A stretch of 64,000 nucleotides of DNA from the NCBI RefSeq assembly GCF_000160135.1, contig NZ_GG729937.1:1121-65120 (forward strand). Direction: 5' to 3'. Positions 4,331-40,307 of the stretch are shown one piece after another (position 1 is the first letter of the stretch; each line of letters begins with the position of its first letter). The notes under the pieces were generated by a model that worked only from the letters and a program-made list of their open reading frames with translations, ran no database searches and was not told the origin of the DNA. A program made the translations under genes and the position numbers. Source of the DNA: Oribacterium sp. oral taxon 078 str. F0262. Lineage in GTDB: Bacteria; Bacillota; Clostridia; Lachnospirales; Lachnospiraceae.

Positions 4331-4460
4331 CTTCGGGGCGGCGATGAAGTCCGGGCCCCACGCAATGAGAGACCTCGAACCGTGTCAGGATGGGAACATA
4401 GCAGCACTAAGGGGACACTTTCATGTGCCGTGGATTCTCCTGGGCGGAGCCGCCCCGAAG
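4331..4460 (+). ncRNA. ffs: Signal recognition particle RNA, small bacterial type
   Basis: The conserved apical domain is present: TGTCAGGATGGGAACATAGC followed by AGCACTAAGG and a return strand ending in GTGCCG. The ends pair perfectly (CTTCGGGGCGGC at 4331-4342 with GCCGCCCCGAAG at 4449-4460). The RNA binds Ffh and targets nascent membrane and secreted proteins. At about 130 bases it is slightly longer than the roughly 100-base minimal form. No clear U-rich terminator follows. It has its own promoter and lies between the MBOAT gene and tatD. Confidence 0.93.
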
Positions 4461-24466: not shown

Positions 24467-25033
24467 GTGCATAAGTCTCCGTCAAGCAGACAAATGCGAG
24501 GCAAGCTCGCTTGCGCGAGCATTTGGATATTTGACGGGACAACAGATATGAGCATGCAGGGCGATAGCCCGAAATGCGAATATCTGTCAGCGATGCGAAA
24601 GCGCAGAAGTCTGCCATCAGGCAGACTCGGAGCGTCCTTGACCACTTCTCGGAGAGAAGTTGAGTCTTAGACAGCTCTCAGACGGCTGATCTTTGCCGCC
24701 TTTCCTGCCGCCATGTCGGTCCAACGCAGGACGCTCTCGCTCCGGCTGCCGCGTCCAGCGGCGCGTAAGCGATTTAAAAAACCAAATCGCAAAGCGCCGG
24801 GGCGGCAGACGGCCTGCTTATGGACCGGCAAAGCGGCAGGGCGACAAAGTGCGGACAGCCGTTGGTGAAGCGGAAGCTTCGAAAGAGAGAAGTGTCTCCC
24901 GAAGGGAGATCGGCTGATGCCTCCCGGGCGAAGCCGAGTCCTGAGCTTCGAAGAAGCGAAGCAGCGCGGAGACTTATGCACGATGGATGACCATGCTTGC
25001 ATGAGCGGACATTCCGGCATCTGACGGGACAAG
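24467..25033 (+). repeat. Hairpin-rich repeat element bounded by 15-bp inverted repeats
   Basis: The ends GTGCATAAGTCTCCG (24467-24481) and CGGAGACTTATGCAC (24967-24981) are perfect inverted repeats. Inside is a chain of hairpins: CGTCAA/TTGACG with CAAATGC/GCATTTG (24480-24536), ACAGATAT/ATATCTGT (24542-24587), AGTCTGCC/GGCAGACT (24608-24627), ACTTCTC/GAGAAGT (24643-24660) and TCTCCC/GGGAGA near 24895. TGACGGGACAA occurs at 24532 and again at 25022. Three modules (24598-24649, 24795-24816, 24887-24940) recur at 50304-50434. It has no credible protein-coding content. Confidence 0.75.
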
Positions 25034-33755: not shown

Positions 33756-34931
33756 TCAGGCGCGCTTTTTGGCGGGGATTTTTCTCCTCAGGCTCTCCAG
33801 ACGGTTCAGGGCCTCCAGAAGTGTCTCGTCCCTTTTCGCGAAGTGGAAGCGGATGAGGTGCTGCACCGGCTCCCGGAAGAAGCTGGAGCCGGGCACTGCT
33901 CCGACTCCCACCAGCCGAGCAAGATCCTCGCAGAATTTCAAATCGCTGTCATAGCCGAATTCGGAGATATCCAGTAAGACATAGTACGCTCCTTCCGGAT
34001 CATTGTGGATAATATGCAGCTCATCCAGGCCCTTGAGGAAGAGCTCCTTCTTGTGGGTATATTGGGCCAGCAGCCCATCATAGTAGTCCTGAGTGAATTT
34101 CAATCCCGGAATCACAGCCTCCTGCAGGGGAGCCGCCGCACCGACCGTCAGAAAATCATGCACCTTTTTTGCGCGCTCAATGATCCTTGGCGGGGCAATG
34201 ATGTAGCCCAGCCGCCAGCCGGTAACAGAGTAGGTCTTGGAAAGAGACGAGCAGGAGATCGTGCGTTCCCACATTTCGGGAAGCGCGGTAAAATAGCAAT
34301 GCCTATGGGGCGCATAGACGATGTGCTCATAGACCTCGTCCGTGATGACATAGAGATCGTACTTCGCGGCCAGCTCCGCGATAATCTCCAGTTCCCCGCG
34401 GCTGAAGACCTTGCCGCAGGGATTGGAGGGGTTGCAGAGCACCAGCGCCTTTGGGTGAGAGCGGAAGGCATCCTCCAGCACATTGGGGTCAAAATGAAAA
34501 TCCGGCGGCGTCAGCGGCACATAAATGGGTTCCGCTCCGGAGAGAATGCTGTCGGCAGCGTAGTTTTCGTAGAACGGGGAGAAGATAACGACCTTGTCCC
34601 CGGGGTTTACGATAGTCATCATGGCAGCCATCATGGCCTCCGTGCTTCCGCAGGTAGTGACAATCTCGCTGTCCGGATCGATGCTGCGGCCCATAAAGCG
34701 GGACTGCTTGGCAGCCAGCGCTTCCCGGAAATTCTGTGCTCCCCAGGTGATGGAATACTGGTGATAATCCTCGTAGGCCACCTGTGCCAGACGATCGAGG
34801 ATCTCCTTTGGCGGTTCAAAATCCGGAAAGCCCTGAGACAGATTGACGGCGCCATATTGAAGGGAAATGCGCGTCATCCTGCGAATAACGGAATCCGTAA
34901 AACCAGAGCTTCGCTCAGAAAGACTCTGCAT
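33756..34931 (-). CDS. PLP-dependent class I aminotransferase, possibly for 2-oxo-4-methylthiobutanoate/methionine
   Basis: 391 residues, fold type I. VNLSQGFPDFEPP near the N-terminus is characteristic of the KAT/YbdL branch that includes methionine aminotransferase. NPSNPCGKVFSRGEL, the PLP Lys in SCSSLSKTYSVTGWRLGY and the C-terminal LIRFHFAKRDETL are present. AAGGAGG precedes the ATG at 34931, and the gene overlaps glcD by 17 bases. As the last gene of a Met-attenuated metNIQ operon it probably forms methionine from its oxo-acid. The substrate is inferred from family and context, not from a diagnostic residue. Confidence 0.88.
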   Translation of the reverse strand: MQSLSERSSGFTDSVIRRMTRISLQYGAVNLSQGFPDFEPPKEILDRLAQVAYEDYHQYSITWGAQNFREALAAKQSRFMGRSIDPDSEIVTTCGSTEAMMAAMMTIVNPGDKVVIFSPFYENYAADSILSGAEPIYVPLTPPDFHFDPNVLEDAFRSHPKALVLCNPSNPCGKVFSRGELEIIAELAAKYDLYVITDEVYEHIVYAPHRHCYFTALPEMWERTISCSSLSKTYSVTGWRLGYIIAPPRIIERAKKVHDFLTVGAAAPLQEAVIPGLKFTQDYYDGLLAQYTHKKELFLKGLDELHIIHNDPEGAYYVLLDISEFGYDSDLKFCEDLARLVGVGAVPGSSFFREPVQHLIRFHFAKRDETLLEALNRLESLRRKIPAKKRA

Positions 34932-36321
34932 GATCTTTTCCTCCTTCGATATAAGATTTTTGGTCATTGAGAATATGCAGCGGGTCTAAAGCATCCTTGA
35001 TCTCGTTCATCACGGCGAGGTTCTCCGCCGCTGTCTCCCGCAGAAAATACCGCCGTTTGGACAGGCCGATGCCGTGCTCGCCGGATGCCACGCCGCCCAG
35101 GCTGTAGGCTTTTGCATAGGCGGAGTCCATATTGGCGTGCAGTTCGCGCCGCCATCTGTCCTCATCACGCTCACCCCGGACAACACACAGATGCACATTC
35201 CCGTCGCCGGCATGGCCGAAACTGATCATCCGCATGCCGGATGACACCTCCAGATCGTTGATGAAGCGGATGAAATCCACTGTATGGCTGATGGGCACCA
35301 CGATGTCCACAGGCTCTTGTTCGGAAACGGCTTCCACCGCCTTGACCAATGCTCCGCGGACCTTCCATATCTCCGCCGCCTGCGCCGGATCGGTGAGCAC
35401 GATATAATCCAGTGCGCCGTTTTCCAAAGCCAGCCCGCGCACCCGCGCGGTATTGAATTCCACCTCGCTCCGGTATCCGTCAAAGGTCAGAAGAATATAG
35501 GAGCCTGCGTCGGGCCTGGGATAACGCAGACCGGAGAAGTCCTCGCCCAGTGCCACGACCTTCCGCTCCATGAATTCCACTGCAGTGGGGTTCGCATTCG
35601 CGCGCAGAATCCTCAGTACGCTCCGGAGGCCGGTATTCAGATCAGGATAGGGAACAAGGACACTGACGGAGGTCTCCGGCTTCGGCAGCAGCCGCAGCAT
35701 ACATTTACTGATAAGTCCAAGTGTCCCCTCGGAGCCGATCAGCAGATGCTTAAGCGACAGCCCGCTGGCATCCTTGACCTGCTTGCCGCCAAGCCGCAAA
35801 ATCGTTCCGTCCGCCAGCACGACCTCCAGCCCCCTCACATAGTCGCGGGTGACACCGTACTTTACCGCCCGCATCCCTCCGGCATTGGTACTGATGTTGC
35901 CGCCGATGCTGGACGCCTTCTCGCCGGGGTCCGGCGGATAAAAGAAACCCCTGGCTTCCACATAGGTCTGCACATCCTGCAGCAGGATGCCGGGCTCTAC
36001 GGTCAGCGTCATGCTGTCCTCATCCAGCTCCAACACGCGATTCATGCGGGAAAAATCAAGGATAATACCTCCCTTGACGGGCACCGTGGAAGCTACCAGA
36101 TTCGTCCCCGCGCCGCGCGGCGTGACCGGGATACGGTTTTCACAGGCGTAACGCAGCACGTCGCTGATCTCTTCTGTCGACAGCGGAAAGATCAGAGCAT
36201 CTGCCGTGCCCTTCCGCCGCCCCAATGCATCGCTGAGATATTCCTTCGGGATATCTGTGTTGAAGATCAAGCGAGTCTTATCCGCAACAAGGTCTTTCAG
36301 TATCTGCCTGTCGATACTCAT
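34915..36321 (-). CDS. FAD-linked D-2-hydroxyacid dehydrogenase (GlcD-like)
   Basis: 468 residues. PCMH-type FAD-binding domain (VTPRGAGTNLVASTVPVKGG; PGEKASSIGGNISTNAGG) and the C-terminal FAD-oxidase domain with ISFGHAGDGNVHLCV and GGVASGEHGIGLSKR. Members oxidise D-lactate, glycolate or related D-2-hydroxyacids to 2-oxoacids and pass electrons to flavoproteins or quinones. No EtfAB genes are adjacent. GGAGG precedes the ATG at 36321. In this operon a plausible substrate is D-2-hydroxy-4-methylthiobutanoate (inference). Confidence 0.88.
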   Translation of the reverse strand: MSIDRQILKDLVADKTRLIFNTDIPKEYLSDALGRRKGTADALIFPLSTEEISDVLRYACENRIPVTPRGAGTNLVASTVPVKGGIILDFSRMNRVLELDEDSMTLTVEPGILLQDVQTYVEARGFFYPPDPGEKASSIGGNISTNAGGMRAVKYGVTRDYVRGLEVVLADGTILRLGGKQVKDASGLSLKHLLIGSEGTLGLISKCMLRLLPKPETSVSVLVPYPDLNTGLRSVLRILRANANPTAVEFMERKVVALGEDFSGLRYPRPDAGSYILLTFDGYRSEVEFNTARVRGLALENGALDYIVLTDPAQAAEIWKVRGALVKAVEAVSEQEPVDIVVPISHTVDFIRFINDLEVSSGMRMISFGHAGDGNVHLCVVRGERDEDRWRRELHANMDSAYAKAYSLGGVASGEHGIGLSKRRYFLRETAAENLAVMNEIKDALDPLHILNDQKSYIEGGKDHAESF

Positions 36322-36396
36322 AAATCGTTCCTCCATTATCGCTAAGTGCCGCCGGTAATCGAAAGAAATACCGGCGGCACTATGGCTAAAGACCGT

Positions 36397-37293
36397 TTAC
36401 TTTGCCAAAAGATTCTGATCCCAGCCGACCTTGATGAAATATCCGCCGTAGGTATCCTTGAATACCTTTTCCGTCTCGGGAGACTGAAAGGCCTTCACGA
36501 CTTTTTCGTAGACAGCCGCCTTGTCCGGGTCCTCCAGATCCGCAGTGCGGGCGGCGATCAGGTTCCAGTACTCCTCCACATCCAAAACGCTGTCCTTATA
36601 GATCGCTTCGTCGCTTTTCAGCCCAAAGTCCAGCGCATAGTTTCCGTTGACCACGGCGGCAGTCACATCGGACAGAGCGGAGGGGATTACATTGGCCTTC
36701 AGCTCCTCGATCTTGATGCCGACATCATACTTTACGATATTATCTATCGTGGGGTTAAACGCTGCATTGGGATCCAGCTCAATCAAGCCTGCCGCCTCCA
36801 GCACCTTCAGCGCACGGCCGCCGTTTGTCAGGTCGTCCGGGATCGCCACGGTATCTCCGTCCTTCAGCTCCTTCACGGAGGAGATCTTCCGGGAATACAG
36901 ATTCAGCGGAATGATAAAGGTGTTTCCGATATTCTGGATCTTATAGCCATGGCTGTCGATCTCGTTCTGAAGATAGATGCGGTGCTGGAAAGAGTTCAGA
37001 TCGATCTCCCCGTTTGCCAGGGCATTATTTGGTGTCACATAGTCGGAGAACTGCACCAGCTCAAGGTCGATGCCCTCACCCTTCAGTGCCTCTTTTGCAG
37101 GCTTCCAAAGATCCTCATAGATGCTTCCGACGACGCCAAGCTTTACTGTGACCCGGGCGGCGGATTCCGTCTTCTGTCCGCTTTCCGAGGATGAATCCCC
37201 CTTTGATGCATGGCTCTTAGAGCCGCAGGCGCTAAGTGCCAGTGCAAAAAGCGCGGCAGACAGTAAAACAGCGATAATCTTATTCCTTTTCAT
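36397..37293 (-). CDS. metQ: MetQ/NlpA-family methionine-binding lipoprotein
   Basis: 298 residues. Lipoprotein signal peptide with lipobox ALSACGS. The NlpA/MetQ domain shows KLGVVGSIYEDLWKPAKEAL, LVQFSDYVTPNNALANGEID (the family's usual position), HRIYLQNEID and VAIPDDLTNGGRALKVLEAAGL. It captures methionine, or a close analogue, for MetNI. It lies between the two hydroxyacid dehydrogenase genes of the same operon. Confidence 0.95.
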   Translation of the reverse strand: MKRNKIIAVLLSAALFALALSACGSKSHASKGDSSSESGQKTESAARVTVKLGVVGSIYEDLWKPAKEALKGEGIDLELVQFSDYVTPNNALANGEIDLNSFQHRIYLQNEIDSHGYKIQNIGNTFIIPLNLYSRKISSVKELKDGDTVAIPDDLTNGGRALKVLEAAGLIELDPNAAFNPTIDNIVKYDVGIKIEELKANVIPSALSDVTAAVVNGNYALDFGLKSDEAIYKDSVLDVEEYWNLIAARTADLEDPDKAAVYEKVVKAFQSPETEKVFKDTYGGYFIKVGWDQNLLAK

Positions 37294-37314
37294 TCTGATT
37301 CCCTCCGGATAATT

Positions 37315-38274
37315 TTACAAAGTCAAAGCCAGCTTGTAGTTTTCGCTCATGGTTTTGCAGGATGCGCTGAATTTTTCCTCTTCCTCAGGGCTGAGCTTTA
37401 ACTCGATGATATCAGCGATCCCATCCCGATTTAATACTGCGGGGACGCTGGCATACACATCCTTCTGTCCGTACTGCCCCTCTAAGAGAACGGATACGGG
37501 AAGGATTCGATTTTCGTCATGAAAAATGGCTCGAACCACCTCTGCAATGGATGCGGCGATGCCAAATTCTGTGGATCCCTTGCCTCCGAGGATCTTCCAG
37601 CCGCCCGCTTTTCCTTCCTCTGCGATGGCATCCGGATCGAGCATGCCATAGCTGTCCGGCCTTTCCTTTTGAAGCTGAGCCAGGGCTTTTCCGCCAAGTG
37701 TAACGGCGGACCACGCGACCATTTGGCTCTCTCCGTGTTCTCCCAGCGCGTAGGCATGGATGGATTTCTGATCCACGCCGGTCGCCTCGGCCAATGCCCG
37801 GCAGAGGCGGGCGGAGTCCAGCGTCGTGCCGGTAGACAGGATGCGTCTGGGAGGCCAATTCAGCTGATGCTGGATATAATGGGTGATGACATCGGCAGGA
37901 TTTGAAATATTTATTATGATTCCGGCAAAGCCGGACATTCGTATCGACTCCGTGACCTCCTTCATAATGACGATCGTCTGCCGAAGCGTGTCCATCCTGG
38001 TCTGCCCCTTGCTGATATCCGGCAGAGGGCCGGCCGCCGTGATCAAAAGCTGGGCATCCGCGATCTCCGTGTAATCTCCCGCATGCACCTTCGCTCTGCT
38101 CGGAAGATACTTTACCGCATCGGAGAGGTCCAGGGCCTGCGCGGCGGCCTTCTTCTCATCGACGTCAATGTAGACGATCTCCTCGGCCAGGCCCTGTGAA
38201 ATCAGGGAATAGCCGGCGTGCGATCCGACGTGTCCCGCTCCGATAATACCGATTTTTCTCTTTTGCAAATTCAT
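37315..38274 (-). CDS. NAD-dependent L-2-hydroxyacid dehydrogenase (lactate/malate dehydrogenase family)
   Basis: 319 residues. NAD-binding GIIGAGHVGSHAGYSL, the ISNPADVITHYIQ block, and the catalytic His in ALGEHGESQMVAWS. The substrate loop (AAGPLPDISKGQTRMDTLR) differs from that of typical L-lactate or malate dehydrogenases and is nearer to hydroxyisocaproate-type enzymes that take bulky side chains. AAGGAGG precedes the ATG at 38274. Its position between metI and metQ suggests the methionine oxo/hydroxy acid as substrate (inference). Confidence 0.85.
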   Translation of the reverse strand: MNLQKRKIGIIGAGHVGSHAGYSLISQGLAEEIVYIDVDEKKAAAQALDLSDAVKYLPSRAKVHAGDYTEIADAQLLITAAGPLPDISKGQTRMDTLRQTIVIMKEVTESIRMSGFAGIIINISNPADVITHYIQHQLNWPPRRILSTGTTLDSARLCRALAEATGVDQKSIHAYALGEHGESQMVAWSAVTLGGKALAQLQKERPDSYGMLDPDAIAEEGKAGGWKILGGKGSTEFGIAASIAEVVRAIFHDENRILPVSVLLEGQYGQKDVYASVPAVLNRDGIADIIELKLSPEEEEKFSASCKTMSENYKLALTL

Positions 38275-38283
38275 TTTTTTCCT

Positions 38284-38323
38284 CCTTAATGCCTGCTCTT
38301 TCTCCTTAATGCCTGCTCTTTCT
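38284..38323. repeat. Tandem 20-bp duplication at the metI/dehydrogenase junction
   Basis: The unit CCTTAATGCCTGCTCTTTCT (plus strand) occurs twice without a gap at 38284-38303 and 38304-38323. On the coding strand each copy carries TAAGGAG, so the metI stop and a ribosome site are duplicated; the copy nearest the dehydrogenase ATG is the working site. Confidence 0.85.
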
Positions 38324-38986
38324 GACAATATGAGCGCCGATGCATTCCATCATACAGACGAGGATGAGCAGAACGATCACGGTCACATTGGTCACATCCG
38401 ACATATTTCTGTCATGCCCGTAGCGGACGGCGAAATCACCGAGGCCGCCTGCACCGACCACACCGGCCATAGCGGTCAGGTTCAGAAGACTGATGGCTGT
38501 GATCGTGGTACTCCGTGCGATAGCCGCTATGCTTTCCCTCAAGTAGACACGAAAGATGATTTCTGCGGGACTGGAGCCCATGGAGAGCGCCGCCTCAATG
38601 AGCCCGGGATCCAACTCGGCCAAGGCGGTCTGCACCTGCCGGGTGAAAAAAGGAACACAGCCGAACACCAGCGGAACAATGGCCCCGCGCACATAAATCG
38701 CCGTCCCCATGATGGCACGAGACAGCGGCATGACCCATGTCAAGAGGATAATAAAGGGGATGGAACGGAACAGGCTGACCAGCTTGTCCAGGATCTGATA
38801 GACGATTTTATTTTCCAAAATGCCGTCCGGCTTCGTGACCGTGAGCAGCACACCAAGGATCAGGCCGAGGACAAAGGAGATAGCGCCTGACCAGATGAGC
38901 ATCAAAAGGGTGTCACCGATTGCGGCATAAAAGTCCGGCAGCTTCGCCATGACATTGGGAATCCAGTTATTCAGAAATTCTTGCAT
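38306..38986 (-). CDS. metI: Methionine ABC transporter permease
   Basis: 226 residues with five membrane helices. The permease loop that contacts the ATPase is present (ALAELDPGLIEAALSMGSSPAEII), as is SIPFIILLTWVMPLSRAIMGT. With MetN and MetQ it forms a D/L-methionine importer. Its start overlaps the metN 3' end by 20 bases. Confidence 0.96.
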   Translation of the reverse strand: MQEFLNNWIPNVMAKLPDFYAAIGDTLLMLIWSGAISFVLGLILGVLLTVTKPDGILENKIVYQILDKLVSLFRSIPFIILLTWVMPLSRAIMGTAIYVRGAIVPLVFGCVPFFTRQVQTALAELDPGLIEAALSMGSSPAEIIFRVYLRESIAAIARSTTITAISLLNLTAMAGVVGAGGLGDFAVRYGHDRNMSDVTNVTVIVLLILVCMMECIGAHIVRKSRH

Positions 38987-40019
38987 CCTTGATCACCTCC
39001 AGGCCTACCTTCTTCTCAATGAGATATTTCATCGCTTCTTCAATCCGTTCCCGCTCTCCGCTGATGATCGCCACCGTTCCGCCAATGGGTGCATCCTCTA
39101 CGATGCTGATATCCGCAAAGATGATATTCAGGGAAAGGCCAAACTTCTGTGATACCGTGGAGATCAGCGGCTCGGAGACATTTCTCTGTAAATAGGAGAG
39201 CCGAACGATCAGCTCCCCCGGCTGAAGCTGAACCACCGGGGAATTTTCAGAAAGCAGCTCCTCAATCTTCCGAAGATTCGAAGTTGTCTGGATGAAGTTT
39301 TTCGTGATCTCCTGTTCAGGCTTGGAAAATACATGAAATACCTCGCCCTGCTCCACCACACGCCCGTGCTCCATGACAGCGACGCGGTGACAGATTTCCC
39401 TGACCACTGCCATCTCATGTGTGATCATCACAATCGTAATGCCGAGTTTTTCATTCAGATGCTTCAGAAGCCGAAGAATAGACTTTGTGGTCTGGGGATC
39501 CAATGCGGAAGTGGCCTCATCGCAGAGCAGCACATTCGGCTCATTGGCCAAGGCTCTCGCAATCGCCACGCGCTGTTTCTGTCCGCCGGAGAGCTGAGAG
39601 GGATAGGCATTCGCCTTATCCTTAATACCCACAAGCTCCAGCAAGTCTGTCACCCTGTCCTCTGTCTCTTTTTTGCCGAGCCCGCTTCCCCGCAGCGGAT
39701 AGGCTACATTTCCCGCGACTGTGCGGGACGGCATCAGATTAAAATGCTGGAAGATCATTCCGATCTTCTTTCGTGTCCTCCGAAGTTCACGCGCGTTCAA
39801 AGCCGTGAGCTCTTTCCCGTCTACCGTGACCGTGCCTCTTGCAGGCCGCTCCAGAAGATTGATGCATCGAAGCAGTGTAGATTTTCCCGCTCCGGAAAAA
39901 CCGATAATCCCGAAAATCTCCGCTTTATCGATGGACAATGAAACATCGCGCAGCGCGTGAACCTGCTGCTGATCTTTCCCGAAATCCTTGGAAATATGCG
40001 TCAACTCAATCAAATCCAT
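38967..40019 (-). CDS. metN: Methionine ABC transporter ATP-binding protein
   Basis: 350 residues. Walker A GFSGAGKST, signature LSGGQKQRVAIARAL, Walker B VLLCDEAT and H-loop MITHEM. The C-terminal NIL (ACT-like) domain, in which MetN proteins bind methionine and shut down transport, is present from about 270 (IVRLSYLQRNVSEPLISTV). AAGGGAGA precedes the ATG at 40019, immediately after the attenuator terminator. Confidence 0.96.
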   Translation of the reverse strand: MDLIELTHISKDFGKDQQQVHALRDVSLSIDKAEIFGIIGFSGAGKSTLLRCINLLERPARGTVTVDGKELTALNARELRRTRKKIGMIFQHFNLMPSRTVAGNVAYPLRGSGLGKKETEDRVTDLLELVGIKDKANAYPSQLSGGQKQRVAIARALANEPNVLLCDEATSALDPQTTKSILRLLKHLNEKLGITIVMITHEMAVVREICHRVAVMEHGRVVEQGEVFHVFSKPEQEITKNFIQTTSNLRKIEELLSENSPVVQLQPGELIVRLSYLQRNVSEPLISTVSQKFGLSLNIIFADISIVEDAPIGGTVAIISGERERIEEAMKYLIEKKVGLEVIKDARISE

Positions 40020-40032
40020 TCTCCCTTCAACG

Positions 40033-40064
40033 AAAAAAGCGGGGGGCCCAAAGGCTCCCCGCTT
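40033..40064 (-). terminator. Attenuator terminator in the metN leader
   Basis: Minus-strand stem AAGCGGGGAGCC/GGCCCCCCGCTT (12 positions, one A-C mismatch) with loop TTTG, followed by TTTTTT, 14 bases before the metN ATG. AAGCGG at 40083-40088 can pair with the same 3' arm and may form a competing fold. Placement between a Met-rich leader peptide and metN is typical of translation-coupled attenuation. Confidence 0.88.
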
Positions 40065-40096
40065 CAAATGCGTCCATCAACTCCGCTTATCCTTGC

Positions 40097-40234
40097 TTAG
40101 CAGAGACACATTCGAGTCCGGATCTTCCGGAAAGGCAGCAAATGAGCACACGAAACTGTGGGCATCGGCATCAGCATAGCCATGTCCATATCCATGCAGC
40201 TCATCATTCGAGAATTACGATAAAACATGCTCAT
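40097..40234 (-). CDS. Methionine-rich leader peptide of the metNIQ operon
   Basis: 45 codons, ATG at 40234, TAA at 40097-40099. Eleven residues are Met, eight of them within residues 10-24 (MMSCMDMDMAMLMPM). AGGAAAGGGG lies just upstream. The stop is 32 bases before the terminator hairpin. Like leader peptides of amino-acid operons, it should sense charged tRNA-Met: stalling at the Met run when methionine is scarce would prevent termination and allow metN expression. No S-box, SAM or T-box element was recognised in this leader. Function is inferred from composition and position. Confidence 0.82.
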   Translation of the reverse strand: MSMFYRNSRMMSCMDMDMAMLMPMPTVSCAHLLPFRKIRTRMCLC

Positions 40235-40278
40235 GCCCCTTTCCTTTAAAATCCTGTATTTCCTGTATTGTGGCTTAG

Positions 40279-40307
40279 ATGGTACTGCTTGTTCCCCGCA
40301 ATGTCAA
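40279..40307 (-). promoter_or_regulatory. Promoter of the methionine operon
   Basis: TTGACA (40302-40307), 17-base spacer, TACCAT (40279-40284) on the minus strand; predicted start near 40272, about 38 bases before the leader-peptide ATG. Confidence 0.7.

Follow-up and report, generated by a model that had tools for sequence, protein, structure and literature searches.

A candidate methionine-codon attenuator with a Met- and Cys-rich leader peptide upstream of metN in Oribacterium

Leader peptides and methionine control in described systems

In the attenuators of trpL, hisL and thrL, a run of cognate codons, mutually exclusive hairpins and a terminator precede the operon. In Bacillota, T-boxes are common, and methionine control is classically exerted through an S-box, a T-box or a MET-box. 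Leader peptides are also described in this phylum, as far as the available parts of the sources go, for His at the hisS paralogues of bacilli (PMC2965389) and for branched-chain amino acids in Staphylococcus and Listeria (PMC5794164, PMC5864092). The portions available of PMC2965389, PMC1262725 and PMC3766115 name no Met attenuator. The closest report found, and the sole earlier Met leader before metN in the literature searched, is the metL proposed before metNIQ of Streptomyces lividans TK24 (PMC8079986). According to the part of that paper at hand, it is a leaderless transcript encoding 29 residues, 3 of them Met counting the start, and the authors note the lack of a typical Rho-independent terminator structure.

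The locus described here lies on the minus strand of a 64,000-nucleotide stretch of DNA from Oribacterium sp. oral taxon 078 str. F0262, referred to in its whole length as the window. As in S. lividans, a Met-containing leader peptide stands 5' of metN of the same transporter, but unlike the actinomycete metL as described in the available text, the leader has a Shine-Dalgarno sequence (SD), contains a dense run of Met, is enriched in Cys, is followed by a terminator and is conserved in several genera. With trpL, hisL and thrL it shares the cognate codon run and the terminator before the operon, and folding predicts mutually exclusive hairpins like theirs; it differs in the amino acid (Met, plus Cys), the transporter operon, the host phylum, and in that region 1 lies in the leader SD/start and not in the codon run. 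The His and branched-chain leaders cited above, as far as the sources were available, share leader-peptide attenuation in Bacillota but serve different amino acids and operons. T-box (RF00230) and S-box (RF00162) elements have the same target, metN, in relatives, and neither is found in the window leader. Within the literature searched, a Met(+Cys) attenuator with a terminator in Bacillota seems to be new. We consider it probable (about 0.82) that a ribosome-mediated transcription attenuator controls the methionine-uptake operon metN-metI-ldh-metQ-glcD. The Met-codon attenuator proposed by an earlier sequence-only reading gains support from the Met run, the terminator, the lack of an Rfam element, the homologous leaders and an alternative fold; the frame, terminator, conservation and alternative pairings were all obtained by computation.

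The leader, the terminator and the operon

Read between 40307 and 40019, the minus strand presents, in this order, a promoter-like site, an SD, a 45-codon frame, a terminator and metN (Table 1). The ORF list and the codon count bear out the frame as first read, with its SD, its 11 Met codons and the 8 within 15 codons. It translates as MSMFYRNSRMMSCMDMDMAMLMPMPTVSCAHLLPFRKIRTRMCLC, with Met at positions 1, 3, 10, 11, 14, 16, 18, 20, 22, 24 and 42. The two strands of the window hold 507 ORFs of 20-80 codons; no other has 10 or more internal Met, and none is as dense in Met (22.7% vs 15.8% for the next). A count of 10 was not reached in any of 5000 dinucleotide shuffles of the leader region (mean 1.8, maximum 8). 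The cognate-codon run that a leader-peptide attenuator requires is therefore present beyond chance, and a short frame with a putative SD precedes the operon on the same strand, as it also requires. Searches of the leader peptides against Pfam and NCBIfam gave no family, the NCBIfam matches (E 0.13 to 0.9) being taken as chance. Elsewhere in the window's genome, Met repeats occur in an 87-codon frame and on contig C12, neither leader-like, and a tandem (ATGCTG)n repeat is found at G000:C10:396975-397103.

Table 1. Features of the leader region and the operon, in order of transcription
Feature	Position	Strand	Basis
Promoter-like site, TTGACA-N17-TACCAT	40279-40307	(-)	consensus scan, 10/12 matches
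SD of the leader frame (putative), AGGAAAGGGG	40236-40245	(-)	sequence
Region 1, start-codon region, can pair with region 2 (1:2)	40229-40237	(-)	duplex -11.3 kcal/mol
Leader peptide frame, 45 codons, 11 Met, 4 Cys	40097-40234	(-)	ORF list, homologues
Met run, codons 10-24 (8 Met in 15 codons)	40163-40207	(-)	codon count
Region 2, GCTCATTTGCT, leader nt 88-98; pairs with region 3 or region 1	40137-40147	(-)	folding
Intervening 12-pair hairpin, TCGAATGTGTCT / GGACGCATTTGA, inside the antiterminator	40064-40115	(-)	folding
Region 3, terminator 5' arm, AGCGGGGAGCC	40053-40063	(-)	folding
Intrinsic terminator, hairpin 3:4 and T6	40033-40063	(-)	folding, homologues
metN, methionine ABC transporter ATPase	38967-40019	(-)	ABC_tran and NIL domains
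metI, permease	38306-38986	(-)	Pfam/NCBIfam
ldh, L-lactate dehydrogenase-type 2-hydroxyacid dehydrogenase	37315-38274	(-)	TIGR01771 327.6 bits, cut-off 303.6
metQ-type lipoprotein	36397-37293	(-)	family matches
glcD, GlcD-like FAD-linked oxidase, last gene considered	34915-36336	(-)	glcD model below its cut-off

The promoter-like site is present as the sequence-only reading gave it, but taken alone the match is weak, because the 901-base region holds two such sites on both strands versus 1.4 expected in shuffles. TTGACA or TTGACT stands at a similar place in L186, L054, L193 and the leaders of genus g345; neither was seen in the 90 bases inspected of L195 and L058. Between leader and metN, the consensus scan lists no separate promoter on that strand from which metN could start 3' of the leader.

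The terminator required between the frame and the first gene is found by folding: AGCGGGGAGCCTTTGGGCCCCCCGCT followed by T6 forms a hairpin of -19.1 kcal/mol, and it ends 13 nt before the metN start. The GC-rich hairpin with T6 noted before metN thus stands, but its stem has 7 + 3 pairs flanking one mismatch (10 pairs) and not a clean 12. A simple terminator scan did not list it, and the support comes from folding and homologues.

Neither an S-box nor a T-box was found in the leader by Rfam at the gathering threshold, and a permissive limit of E 10 adds only four sub-threshold matches, all to unrelated families, in agreement with the first impression that no such core could be recognised. The single SAM riboswitch that Rfam finds in the window's genome precedes a frame read as metK. 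Other Rfam matches in the window are the bacterial large SRP RNA and Clostridiales-1 RNA at 4331-4460 (+) and 24472-24629 (+).

The best NCBIfam match of the window metN is MetN, with 401.4 bits under a model cut-off of 499.7, and the family names point to Met as the probable substrate of the transporter. The start codon of ldh was chosen by us; the ORF list has TTG at 38328. Judging by gene order and spacing, the GlcD-like oxidase gene probably belongs to the operon. The dehydrogenase gene lies within metNIQ and the FAD oxidase gene behind it (34915-38274(-)), likewise in L054, G212 and G360, where the leader accompanies the same metN-metI-ldh-metQ-glcD set. Lachnoclostridium phytofermentans has ldh and no glcD match in the stretch examined, G210 has glcD and no ldh match, and G159 has neither. 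In G014 and G005, which lack the leader, a more distant ldh and a partial match to glcD likewise lie close to metNIQ, so the two genes are not strict markers of the leader. Two 2-hydroxyacid oxidoreductases encoded with Met uptake may suggest use of methionine hydroxy analogue.

Alternative pairings and the proposed mechanism

The alternative antiterminator fold had not been fixed by hand; folding yields one, formed by regions 2 and 3. Region 2 makes 10 pairs with AGCGGGGAGC, enclosing a 6-pair and the 12-pair hairpin, the latter overlapping the leader stop codon, and the structure has -37.2 kcal/mol before the terminator 3' arm is made. If the front edge of the ribosome is taken to lie 15 nt from the first base of the A-site codon, the RNA is covered to nt 84 when a ribosome is stalled on Met24, the last Met codon of the cluster; region 2 begins at nt 88, at this assumed edge. 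The mean probability that the terminator arm is paired upstream is 0.87 with the ribosome at Met24 vs 0.25 at the stop codon. For the untranslated leader the probabilities are 0.90 for 3:4, 0.00 for 2:3 and 0.65 for region 2 with the SD/start region. The 1:2 duplex reaches p = 0.027 against shuffled region 1; as an addition to the earlier reading, the leader's own SD/start region can, in these models, act as a pairing partner.

When charged Met-tRNA (probably Cys-tRNA too) is scarce, the ribosome would stall on the Met run and leave region 2 free to pair with the terminator 5' arm, and RNA polymerase would enter metN. With Met plentiful, the ribosome would reach the stop codon, region 2 or the intervening hairpin would be disturbed, and the terminator would form. 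If the leader is untranslated, region 2 would be held by the leader SD/start region and the terminator would form as well. We infer that the leader is transcribed and translated, that ribosomes stall in it and that the operon responds to Met, with a contribution of Cys. A complication for any Met leader peptide is that starvation for Met should deplete the initiator tRNA as well.

Comparable sets of 1:2, 2:3 and 3:4 pairings are found in most of the 11 leaders tested. The region-1 pairing has p < 0.05 in six (the window, L186, L058, L205, L188 and L208, the last three from one genus) and not in L054, L193, L195, L206 and L207. The 2:3 test was done twice; for the second round the measure was altered, the limits of the arm were redrawn and the stall codon was moved in L054 (18 to 16) and L193 (15 to 12). 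The stall codons were picked after the folds had been seen, so the 2:3 tests are partly post hoc. The p values range from 0.025 to 0.66 by the first measure and from 0.002 to 0.57 by the second. By the first, p < 0.05 is reached in 1 of 11 leaders, and the five g345 leaders tested gave 0.20 to 0.63; by the second, with shuffled upstream sequence, it is reached in 6 of 11 (L186, L193, L195, L058, L205 and L208). The window antiterminator alone gives 0.06 by the first measure and, by the second, 0.15 with shuffled upstream sequence and 0.34 with a shuffled arm. Combined over seven leaders by the second measure, with the post hoc stall codons, p is 3e-5 (3e-4 with shuffled arms). Individual leaders depart from this picture: the antiterminator of L054 is weak (p 0.57), the untranslated fold of L193 favours 2:3 (0.89), unlike the window, and in L188 and L208 the first measure at the Met stall (0.39) is not above the stop values (0.45 and 0.44). 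Across leaders, the predicted pairings are only moderately better than shuffles.

Distribution, conservation and meaning

A Met/Cys-rich leader with a terminator precedes 14 of 132 distinct metN loci, in six genera of the family Lachnospiraceae and one Agathobaculum record, and encodes 13 distinct peptides; the loci are the best matches to the window MetN and not a random sample, further metN places being left out. The expectation that related Lachnospiraceae carry Met-rich leaders before metN thus holds for other genera of the family. The leader criterion (20-60 codons, at least 5 internal Met) selected 18 loci. Five were set aside: L068 and L128, with no terminator seen near metN; L202, whose upstream sequence we read as the end of a metQ-like gene; and L096 and L030, a decision based only on the frame. 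We included L206 manually, since its frame exceeded the length limit owing to an in-frame start further upstream. Three rows were dropped, L091 for too little upstream sequence and L055 and L058 for upstream sequence the same as in L008 and L196. The upstream of metN was also read in L194 and L200, with no leader. The L068 frame, from Parasutterella secunda and located about 303 to 195 nt before metN, ends in EMRMCMMTMVL; it is a possible independent Met leader in Pseudomonadota, with no clear terminator seen. In L208 and L209, about 120-130 extra bases separate the leader terminator from metN in comparison with L188.

The closest metN among named genomes is that of Agathobaculum sp. SUG777 (81%), with MYSLDYRMLGCMDMMMPMFFHAHLSPTR and a terminator. 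A five-fold ATGNNN pattern is common (216 of 397 family genomes); among the matches listed, only the place in G212 was followed, where the frame MYCVGCRMLSRMYMDMAMLMPTICYARLRSAGYIWE and a terminator stand ahead of a metN 78% identical to the window's. L. phytofermentans also has a Met/Cys-rich leader and a terminator before metN, and a 2041-base stretch of this locus is identical in G167, on which ground the family searched is taken to be Lachnospiraceae. A metN search of the 397 family genomes (E up to 1e-118) gave 17 genomes with one locus each; six have the leader (G000, G212, G360, G159, G210 and G167), and one of the 14 that were scanned with Rfam has a T-box. By genus, such a metN is found in 8 of 25 genomes in that of G360 (g345), all eight with the leader; in 2 of 24 in that of G212, one with the leader; and in 2 of 17 in that of G159, one with the leader and one with a T-box. 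An Rfam scan of 54 loci (without L194, L200 and L201) found a T-box before metN in 4 and a SAM riboswitch in 6, which makes metN a usual target of T-box/SAM control.

Loss of the Met run in close relatives, which the sequence-only reading would have counted against itself, gave a divided result. In the window's own genus, a search of 17 genomes for the leader DNA matches only the window's genome, and the eight metN loci examined are without the run (L004-L008, 61-66% identical, and the more distant L012, L016 and L032), but the leader is kept in the closest homologues, L054 (81%) and G212 (78%). The MetN tree (57 rows, 13 with leader) places L004-L008 in a separate, supported clade and requires 4 changes of the leader; this fits one origin with losses, and also several gains. 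G073 (L187), with a MetN 72% identical, has a terminator-like hairpin and no Met-rich leader; by our reading, a cysK-like gene lies upstream, as in G212. A leader profile gave clear matches in the 397 family genomes (E up to 1.5e-4) only before metN (n = 6), all six being leaders used to build the model, and none of the 10 marginal matches read (E 0.004 to 1) looked like a Met-rich leader before a gene. A wider spread is not indicated, since in 391 class genomes the profile (E up to 0.02) found only the window's genome and G360. The five matches listed from a plasmid search are only partial, covering at most 25% of the query.

In the 13 distinct leaders, Met makes up 16.9% and Cys 9.7% of the internal residues; for the five proteins encoded by the operon in the window, the values are 1.9% and 0.7%. 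Beyond the Met content observed earlier, Cys too is strongly enriched. The leaders of g345 keep an A-M-x-x-M-C-C core with silent changes (Ala GCA/GCC/GCG, Cys TGC/TGT). All eight also contain CTCCCA, in codon phase 2 at five loci, 0 at one and 1 at two, and its presence in three phases shows constraint at the RNA level. In seven of the eight, the terminator 5' arm contains the complementary GGGAG (L207 has GGGGG), and most g345 leaders also have a complementary GGGAG-like sequence in their SDs. Distant-clade leader peptides stay Met/Cys-rich though only 14-16% identical to the window's. CGA-ATG (Arg-Met) recurs in four leaders (the window, at codons 9-10 and 41-42, L186, L054 and L193); CGA is usually a rare Arg codon.

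Conserved residues other than Met (Ala and the Cys-Cys by the last Met codons in g345, AHL/ARL in the window, L054 and G212) would fit an arrest peptide, in which the nascent Met/Cys-rich chain stalls the ribosome on free Met, SAM or another effector, TnaC-like, and not at empty Met codons. The AHL/ARL codons of the window and G212 are also region 2, however, so their conservation can be RNA pairing; the positions and number of Met vary between clades, as codon sensing allows, and an arrest peptide would have no need of many Met codons. We regard it as unlikely that the peptide acts in this way, whether by sensing free methionine (or SAM) or by integrating Met and Cys status; if true, it would be a ribosome-based sulfur amino-acid sensor of Bacillota replacing T-box and S-box. 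An undescribed Met or SAM riboswitch overlapping an incidental frame would explain the strong overall fold of the window leader (z = -3.76; 0 of 200 shuffles as good) and accord with the T-box or SAM element at metN of some relatives, but the permissive Rfam search gave no match to such an element, the g345 core codons change silently while the residues stay, and the distant peptides keep their Met and Cys despite low identity, which makes it very improbable. Least credible is a small peptide with a function of its own, such as metal binding, followed by an ordinary terminator that acts constitutively: its high Met and Cys content would suit, but frame and terminator have complementary elements in common, the in-frame RNA element is kept across three codon phases, and the clear profile matches lie before metN only (a circular point, the leaders having been collected from metN loci).

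Within one family, then, metN is preceded by a leader peptide or a T-box, and in related families by a SAM riboswitch. If the attenuator reading is true, with a leader that reads Met and probably Cys, one and the same transporter gene has exchanged one principle of sensing for another. This raises the question of leader-peptide attenuation for an amino acid that also starts translation, and the homologous leaders in several genera, including that of Lachnoclostridium phytofermentans, make it testable.
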